Shown in pieces: positions 24,456 to 25,120 of a DNA stretch of 64,000 nt; position 1 is the stretch's first letter, and every line of letters starts with the position of its first letter. Made by a program: the position numbers and the translations under genes. The stretch spans positions 62,001 through 126,000 of the forward strand of contig CACECK010000004.1 in assembly GCA_902557965.1 (NCBI GenBank), given 5' to 3'. A model generated the notes under the pieces. That model ran no database searches and was not told the origin of the DNA. It saw only the letters and a list, made by a program, of their open reading frames with translations. The stretch is from an uncultured SAR86 cluster bacterium (lineage in GTDB: Bacteria; Pseudomonadota; Gammaproteobacteria; Magnimaribacterales; D2472).

Positions 24456-24474
24456 AAAGAATTATTCTTTTTTT
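24456..24474 (+). terminator. Possible weak terminator after tRNA-Met
   Basis: AAAGAA (24456-24461) and TTCTTT (24465-24470) form a six-pair, mostly AT hairpin with a three-base loop followed by further T residues. The stem is weak, and it overlaps the stop codon of the convergent small gene. It might slow polymerase on either strand, but evidence is thin. Confidence 0.3.
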
Positions 24475-24695
24475 AGATAAGCTAGAATTATTATCAACGA
24501 GACTAAAACCAACAAGCCATCTTCACCTAACATTGCTACTATTGAAGAAACATTTTTATAAACATCTCCAACAAATGGGGTATCGGTTCCCATTAAGATT
24601 CCTAGCAATAAAGAAACCACAACAAGTGGTATAAGTATTTTAGTTAATTTGTTTAATAAGGCTGTTATGCCTGCAAATGTAAATTTAAAGTTCAT
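24462..24695 (-). CDS. Two-helix microprotein, paralogue B (unknown function)
   Basis: The 77-residue product is not recognised. It has two strongly hydrophobic segments, at about residues 18-36 (ILIPLVVVSLLLGILMG) and about 58-73 (DGLLVLVSLIIILAYL), joined by a short polar loop FVGDVYKNVSSIVAMLGE. The C-terminus is KKE. It aligns along most of its length with the neighbouring 71-residue protein: both have L-T-K/E followed by I/V-L-I, a G-x-L-x-x-G turn, a loop with a V/I-x-N-V/I-S/T core and ML before helix 2. The start lies 11 bases after a terminator hairpin, with no Shine-Dalgarno in between, so expression may depend on read-through. A two-spanning inner-membrane topology is inferred. Confidence 0.72.
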   Translation of the reverse strand: MNFKFTFAGITALLNKLTKILIPLVVVSLLLGILMGTDTPFVGDVYKNVSSIVAMLGEDGLLVLVSLIIILAYLKKE

Positions 24696-24701
24696 ATTTT
24701 T

Positions 24702-24734
24702 AAAAACTTAGGAAGGGTTTTATCCCTTCCTAAG
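24702..24734 (-). terminator. Strong intrinsic terminator between microprotein genes
   Basis: On the minus strand CTTAGGAAGGG and CCCTTCCTAAG pair perfectly (11 pairs, 12 with one flanking A-T) around a six-base loop ATAAAA and are followed by five T residues. It lies 17 bases after the stop of the 71-residue gene and ends just before the ATG of the 77-residue gene. It is the strongest terminator seen in the window. Confidence 0.88.
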
Positions 24735-24751
24735 TAGATTATTAAGTTATG

Positions 24752-24967
24752 CTACTTAACAAGACTCATTAAGACTGCTAAGACAAGAAGTCCTACAACA
24801 CCATTAGAAGTAAGCATTTCAACTAATCCTGTTATATTACCAATCACGTCAAGTCCAAGAACATCACCGAACACTAAAGCTCCAACGATACCTAGACCTA
24901 GCACTCCTATTAGCACCTCAGTCAAATTTTTGACGATGCCGTTTATCATCTTCCATGCATTATCCAT
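24752..24967 (-). CDS. Two-helix microprotein, paralogue A (unknown function)
   Basis: The 71-residue product is not recognised. An amphipathic N-terminus (WKMINGIVKNLTE) is followed by helix 1 at about residues 18-34 (VLIGVLGLGIVGALVFG, glycine-rich), a loop with DVLGLDVIGNITGLVEMLT and helix 2 at about 53-69 (NGVVGLLVLAVLMSLV), ending in Lys. It is a paralogue of the 77-residue protein downstream. The ATG is preceded at seven bases by AGGGGGG, the strongest ribosome binding site noticed in this window. A terminator follows the stop. Together these suggest a short, highly translated mRNA for a small membrane protein. Pilin-like, holin-like or oligomer-forming roles are possible; none is supported directly. 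Confidence 0.8.
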   Translation of the reverse strand: MDNAWKMINGIVKNLTEVLIGVLGLGIVGALVFGDVLGLDVIGNITGLVEMLTSNGVVGLLVLAVLMSLVK

Positions 24968-25024
24968 AATATTTCCCCCCTATTAGGTTTTTTTATGTTT
25001 TGCAGGATTAATGAGAACACAAAT

Positions 25025-25038
25025 TATGATCTGAATCA
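25025..25038 (-). promoter_or_regulatory. FNR/CRP-type palindrome upstream of microprotein A
   Basis: Within the 153-base gap between pnp and the 71-residue gene, the minus strand reads TTGAT-TCAG-ATCAT. This matches nine of ten defined positions of the FNR-family box TTGATNNNNATCAA. It is centred about 64 bases before the ATG. A TTGTCA (-35-like) with TCTAGT 16 bases on lies farther upstream. No convincing -10 sits at the ideal distance from the palindrome, so the site is tentative. The rest of the gap shows no gene. Confidence 0.3.
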
Positions 25039-25120
25039 AATCGTGTTACTAGAAATAAGACACAATATTTGACAACAACAAAATTATCTAATATTAGGAG
25101 GAAATTAAGTTTTTATGAAC

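Follow-up and report, generated by a model that had tools for sequence, protein, structure and literature searches.

The locus examined here raises the question of what two short neighbouring genes of a SAR86 bacterium, A and B, encode and what the pair does for the cell. They lie within a 64-kb stretch of DNA that was analysed at its full length (the window), flanked by pnp and tRNA-Met/ychF. Two adjacent minus-strand ORFs of 71 and 77 aa had been proposed at this place, and both were confirmed there (Table 1). With median dN/dS values of 0.15 for A and 0.10 for B, both are real, selected genes under purifying selection. Matches to Rfam in the region, the tRNA excepted, were attributed to chance. 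A possible third copy in the same genome, located beside the tat genes (L002), was a weak match and was also treated as chance.

Table 1. Features of the A/B locus (positions within the window)
Feature	Position	Strand	Description
Gene A	24752..24967	minus	ORF; 71-aa two-helix membrane microprotein, upstream paralogue
Gene B	24462..24695	minus	ORF; 77-aa two-helix membrane microprotein, downstream paralogue
Hairpin between A and B	24706..24735	minus	perfect 12-bp stem, 6-nt loop, short T-tract
RBS of A	24975..24981	minus	AGGGGGG; ends 7 bases before the ATG
Probable promoter of A	25011..25039	minus	TTGATT - 17 nt - TCTCAT with TG extension; conserved columns in the SAR86 upstream alignment
Near-inverted repeat upstream of A	25035..25073	minus	GTCAAAT ... 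ATTTGAT; conserved in the SAR86 upstream alignment

The two proteins had been suspected of being products of an old duplication. Direct comparison of this single pair by BLASTP gave a non-significant match (28%, E=0.94). The homology was settled by related sequences and profiles, which were decisive where the single pair was not. Comparison of the A profile with the B profile by hhalign gave 99.3% with E=4e-20, and B used as the query matched the A copies of relatives with E-values down to about 1e-8. Separate A and B clades were recovered in 65 of 65 non-redundant pairs, and the IQ-TREE phylogeny united the B sequences of SAR86 and SAR92 in one clade with a support of 99.8/100. On sequence grounds, A and B are ancient tandem paralogues, as suspected.

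Homologues beyond this genome were found in SAR86, in other Gammaproteobacteria and in viruses. Among 100 related genomes, A was matched in 89 and B in 90 (E<=1); most matches were strong, and a few were weak chance matches, such that the true share is about 85−90%. The tandem pair was present in roughly the same proportion (85−90%) of the 100 sampled SAR86 genomes, across four families. No convincing copy of A or of B was found in G061, a SAR86 genome in one contig with 97% completeness. Since some SAR86 genomes such as this one do without the pair, it can be lost and is not essential everywhere. Conservation of the pair beside pnp and ychF in relatives, raised as a check in the original prediction, was observed: both genes were present at 59 of the 119 fetched loci tested. 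The remaining loci had one of the two or neither, reflecting rearrangement, short contigs or other lineages.

Outside SAR86, homologues were found in SAR92/Porticoccaceae, in Woeseia-like genomes, in Thioglobaceae (SUP05) and in a few other Gammaproteobacteria; lineage names not given in the record titles were assigned from gene order and relatedness. Pairs occurred in SAR92/Porticoccaceae, in a lineage where they adjoin zapA/ygfA, and in one further genome (G437), and the Woeseia-like genomes carried singletons. In Thioglobaceae the copy sits between ubiA and dapD, and in one genus of this family two or three tandem copies occupy that position (L336:3241-4294, L337:3371-4021), each followed by a terminator-like hairpin. 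These tandem copies arose separately from the SAR86 pair. No constant neighbour gene pointing to a pathway was found outside SAR86. In a sample taken across the phylum, no match from beyond the Gammaproteobacteria was convincing; one match from outside the class (G639) was a partial frame overlapping other genes and was taken as chance.

Some further features were seen at individual loci. One family member was fused to a long lysine/threonine-repeat tail, giving a protein of 183 aa (L127:1150-1701). A conserved, membrane-like ORF of 105 aa with no clear family directly followed the SAR92-type pair at three loci (L202:8821-9138, L209:1056-1373, L210:8768-9085); homology to A or B was not supported for it (hhalign 3%). 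One Porticoccaceae pair lay just after crtY-, blh- and idi-like genes of retinal synthesis, which were named by eye (L194:2885-6538).

The gap between A and B contains a hairpin that had been called the best terminator in the window. This description was upheld for the stem, which forms the strongest perfect hairpin within the 64 kb. As a terminator it fared less well, the T-tract being short and the hairpin not listed by the terminator scan of the window. Of 68 SAR86 pairs, nearly all had the hairpin, in 57 distinct sequences; in one weak case (L021), the start codon had been called too far upstream and the gap was partly taken as gene. All four Watson-Crick pair types were observed at most stem positions, indicating that it is the base pairing that is conserved. 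In many of these hairpins the T-tract was weak, as would fit a leaky terminator or a structure that stabilises the mRNA. A hairpin was likewise present between the copies of SAR92 pairs, and terminator-like hairpins were seen 3' of the singleton genes of Thioglobaceae, of Woeseia-like genomes and of several viral copies.

The RBS proposed for A, AGGGGGG seven bases ahead of the ATG, was found, and its G-run was conserved among relatives. Further upstream, the SAR86 relatives had in common GTCAAAT, ATTTGAT and a TG-T-TCTCAT-like box in addition to the G-run. The box belongs to a probable promoter, which is absent from the program's list of consensus promoters, and the repeat may be the site of a regulator. 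High expression of the pair had also been proposed. The codon usage of A was unlike that of ribosomal genes and gave no sign of high expression, and what speaks for the proposal is confined to the conserved RBS, hairpin and upstream region. Because A has upstream signals of its own and the conserved hairpin behind it, it would probably be made in excess of B.

The original prediction recognised no family for either protein, and the searches agreed. Neither Pfam nor NCBIfam gave a match above the curated cut-off, the PHROGs profiles (holins included) gave none, and PDB gave no useful match by sequence or by fold (Foldseek). Weak and inconsistent matches to CbiM (0.006), PRD1_DD (0.01) and DUF4006 (0.004) were treated as chance. 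A clear match to a holin or an ATP synthase-like subunit was looked for and not found, and a literature search returned no paper on this gene family. The proposed two-helix membrane plan was supported by the models. The AF2 model of A has helices at residues 2−37, 41−53 and 57−70 (pLDDT 83) and that of B at residues 7−35 and 42−76 (pLDDT 86), in agreement with hydropathy and charges, which suit a hairpin whose basic termini lie on the inner side and whose acidic turn lies on the outer side. A and B belong to an undescribed family of proteins of about 70 residues in marine Gammaproteobacteria, predicted to be two-helix proteins of the inner membrane.

Such a plan is shared by more than one kind of membrane protein. 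A proteolipid like ATP synthase subunit c would also be a two-helix hairpin of similar length; however, the alignments lack a conserved acidic residue in helix 2 and no family match was obtained, and this explanation is disfavoured as very improbable. Alternatively, the hairpins might be a miniature counterpart of mechanosensitive channels, oligomerising so that the glycine-rich first helix forms the pore of a small ion or osmotic-release channel. The amphipathic N-terminus, the glycine-containing first helix, the presence of two helices and the cytoplasmic termini predicted by charge are compatible with this, and MscL has a comparable plan. Set against them, MscL and other channel families gave no match and Foldseek against PDB returned nothing, and a channel function is considered unlikely.

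The most telling feature of the family, and one that is new here, is its presence in viruses; the earlier sequence-only reading could not reveal the viral homologues, the wider family and the tandem copies of Thioglobaceae. In IMG/VR, homologues of a first clade were found on 193 contigs of T4-like marine viruses, of which the best 80 were retained, and those of a second clade on about 10 T4-like contigs (L312-L321). Exactly one family ORF was present at 95 of the 96 viral loci examined, and never two. The copies are surrounded by virus hallmark genes, including clamp loader, PhoH, DNA ligase and exonuclease by PHROGs, with nrd and tail tube and sheath genes close by; they are on true virus genomes. 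No viral homologues of B-type, SAR92-type or Woeseia-type were found. A tblastn search of phage and plasmid collections gave no match, although the low-complexity filter of BLAST may mask proteins as hydrophobic as these.

In the tree, the first viral clade grouped with Thioglobaceae hosts (support 91.3/98). The second was separate (support 98.5/100) and fell, with weak support, among SAR86-type A genes. Based on these different placements, the family was probably recruited by viruses twice. The contigs of the second clade carry several tRNAs, one of which, a tRNA-Leu, matched SAR86 at 91%, tied with one other genus; their ferredoxin-NADP reductase was uninformative on the host. They are possible SAR86 viruses. 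Genes resembling those for ferredoxin-NADP reductase, IscU, peroxiredoxin, MetK and porin, named by eye, are also present on these contigs (e.g. L320:10001-10222).

First-clade copies were found between nrdA and nrdB at 12 loci, between nrdB and glutaredoxin at 7, between clamp loader and Hsp20 at 12, and at other sites. The nrdA/nrdB/glutaredoxin or clamp-loader/Hsp20 setting of many viral copies is typical of auxiliary genes. At about 20 loci, the nearest marker was the tail-tube gene, on the opposite strand, and the location is consequently not always auxiliary-like. These positions bear on a holin-like role, in which a class II-like permeabiliser would time viral lysis and the cellular copies would act as a regulated leak, A and B being effector and inhibitor. 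Two helices, a length of 70−80 residues, predicted cytoplasmic termini and carriage by lytic-type viruses are all in keeping with such a protein. Against it, PHROGs gave no holin or other profile match, the viral copies often lie among genes of replication and nucleotide metabolism, with no lysis cassette recognised around them, and the chromosomal pair is strongly conserved in SAR86. The recurrent nearest markers of the viral copies are nrdA, nrdB, glutaredoxin, clamp loader, Hsp20 or tail tube. The viral location and the missing holin profile make a lysis role less likely, and it is regarded as distinctly doubtful.

Carriage of relatives of one of the two proteins by two separate groups of marine viruses suggests an importance of the protein in infection. 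The tentatively favoured explanation, held at somewhat less than even confidence, is that A and B are oligomerising two-helix hairpins of the inner membrane that protect or support the energised membrane, and of which viruses carry a spare copy. Each protein is predicted to be a helical hairpin whose two ends lie in the cytoplasm and whose short acidic turn is periplasmic. The hairpins probably assemble through glycine-rich helix faces as homo- or hetero-oligomers and would then serve the energised cytoplasmic membrane as a small accessory, structural or protective in kind. By keeping their own copy, T4-like viruses could sustain this activity while host gene expression is shut down, by analogy with the use that cyanophages make of high-light-inducible proteins.

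The proteins might instead belong to a large membrane complex (a respiratory enzyme, a transporter or a secretion system, for example) as an accessory subunit or assembly factor, the viral copies then maintaining the complex. Small hydrophobic hairpins often fill such roles, and recruitment by viruses agrees with support of the host's energy metabolism; however, no constant gene partner was found across lineages and known small subunits show no similarity to A/B. This is possible, if rather unlikely, and together with the channel it stands close behind the membrane-protective oligomer. The family may represent a new type of viral auxiliary gene: T4-like viruses would have acquired a conserved membrane-hairpin microprotein of marine bacteria on at least two occasions, and would use it to keep the host membrane working during infection. 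L312-L321 would then be candidate SAR86 viruses. This is a serious proposal that nevertheless falls a little short of probable.

Few bacteria of the ocean are as abundant as SAR86 and SUP05. The microprotein has been kept despite genome streamlining, tandem-duplicated more than once and placed on lytic-type viruses of apparently two lineages. Its retention, repeated duplication and viral carriage point to a membrane function important for virus production. The family could serve as a marker for SAR86 and SUP05 viruses, and is a small, testable target.

Four known systems invite comparison. MscL and other small channels resemble A/B in the amphipathic start, the glycine-containing first helix and the hairpin plan, but A/B has no sequence or fold match to them. 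The light-harvesting pufBA genes encode small membrane proteins and have an intercistronic hairpin. Like A/B, they are an operon-like pair with a hairpin at the cistron boundary; in A/B, by contrast, the hairpin separates two paralogues, and no pigment-binding residues are known. Class II holins share the two helices, similar length and predicted cytoplasmic termini, and differ in that A/B is a conserved chromosomal pair without a holin profile, and in that no lysis cassette was recognised around the viral copy. The hli genes of cyanophages differ in that no sequence similarity to A/B was detected, the hosts of A/B are not phototrophic cyanobacteria and A/B has two predicted membrane helices. 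The likeness is in their biology: nrd and hli genes have been counted together as phage auxiliary genes, and hli, like A/B, is a small host membrane protein with several host copies, which T4-like marine viruses carry alongside nrd and further auxiliary genes (PMC5082946).
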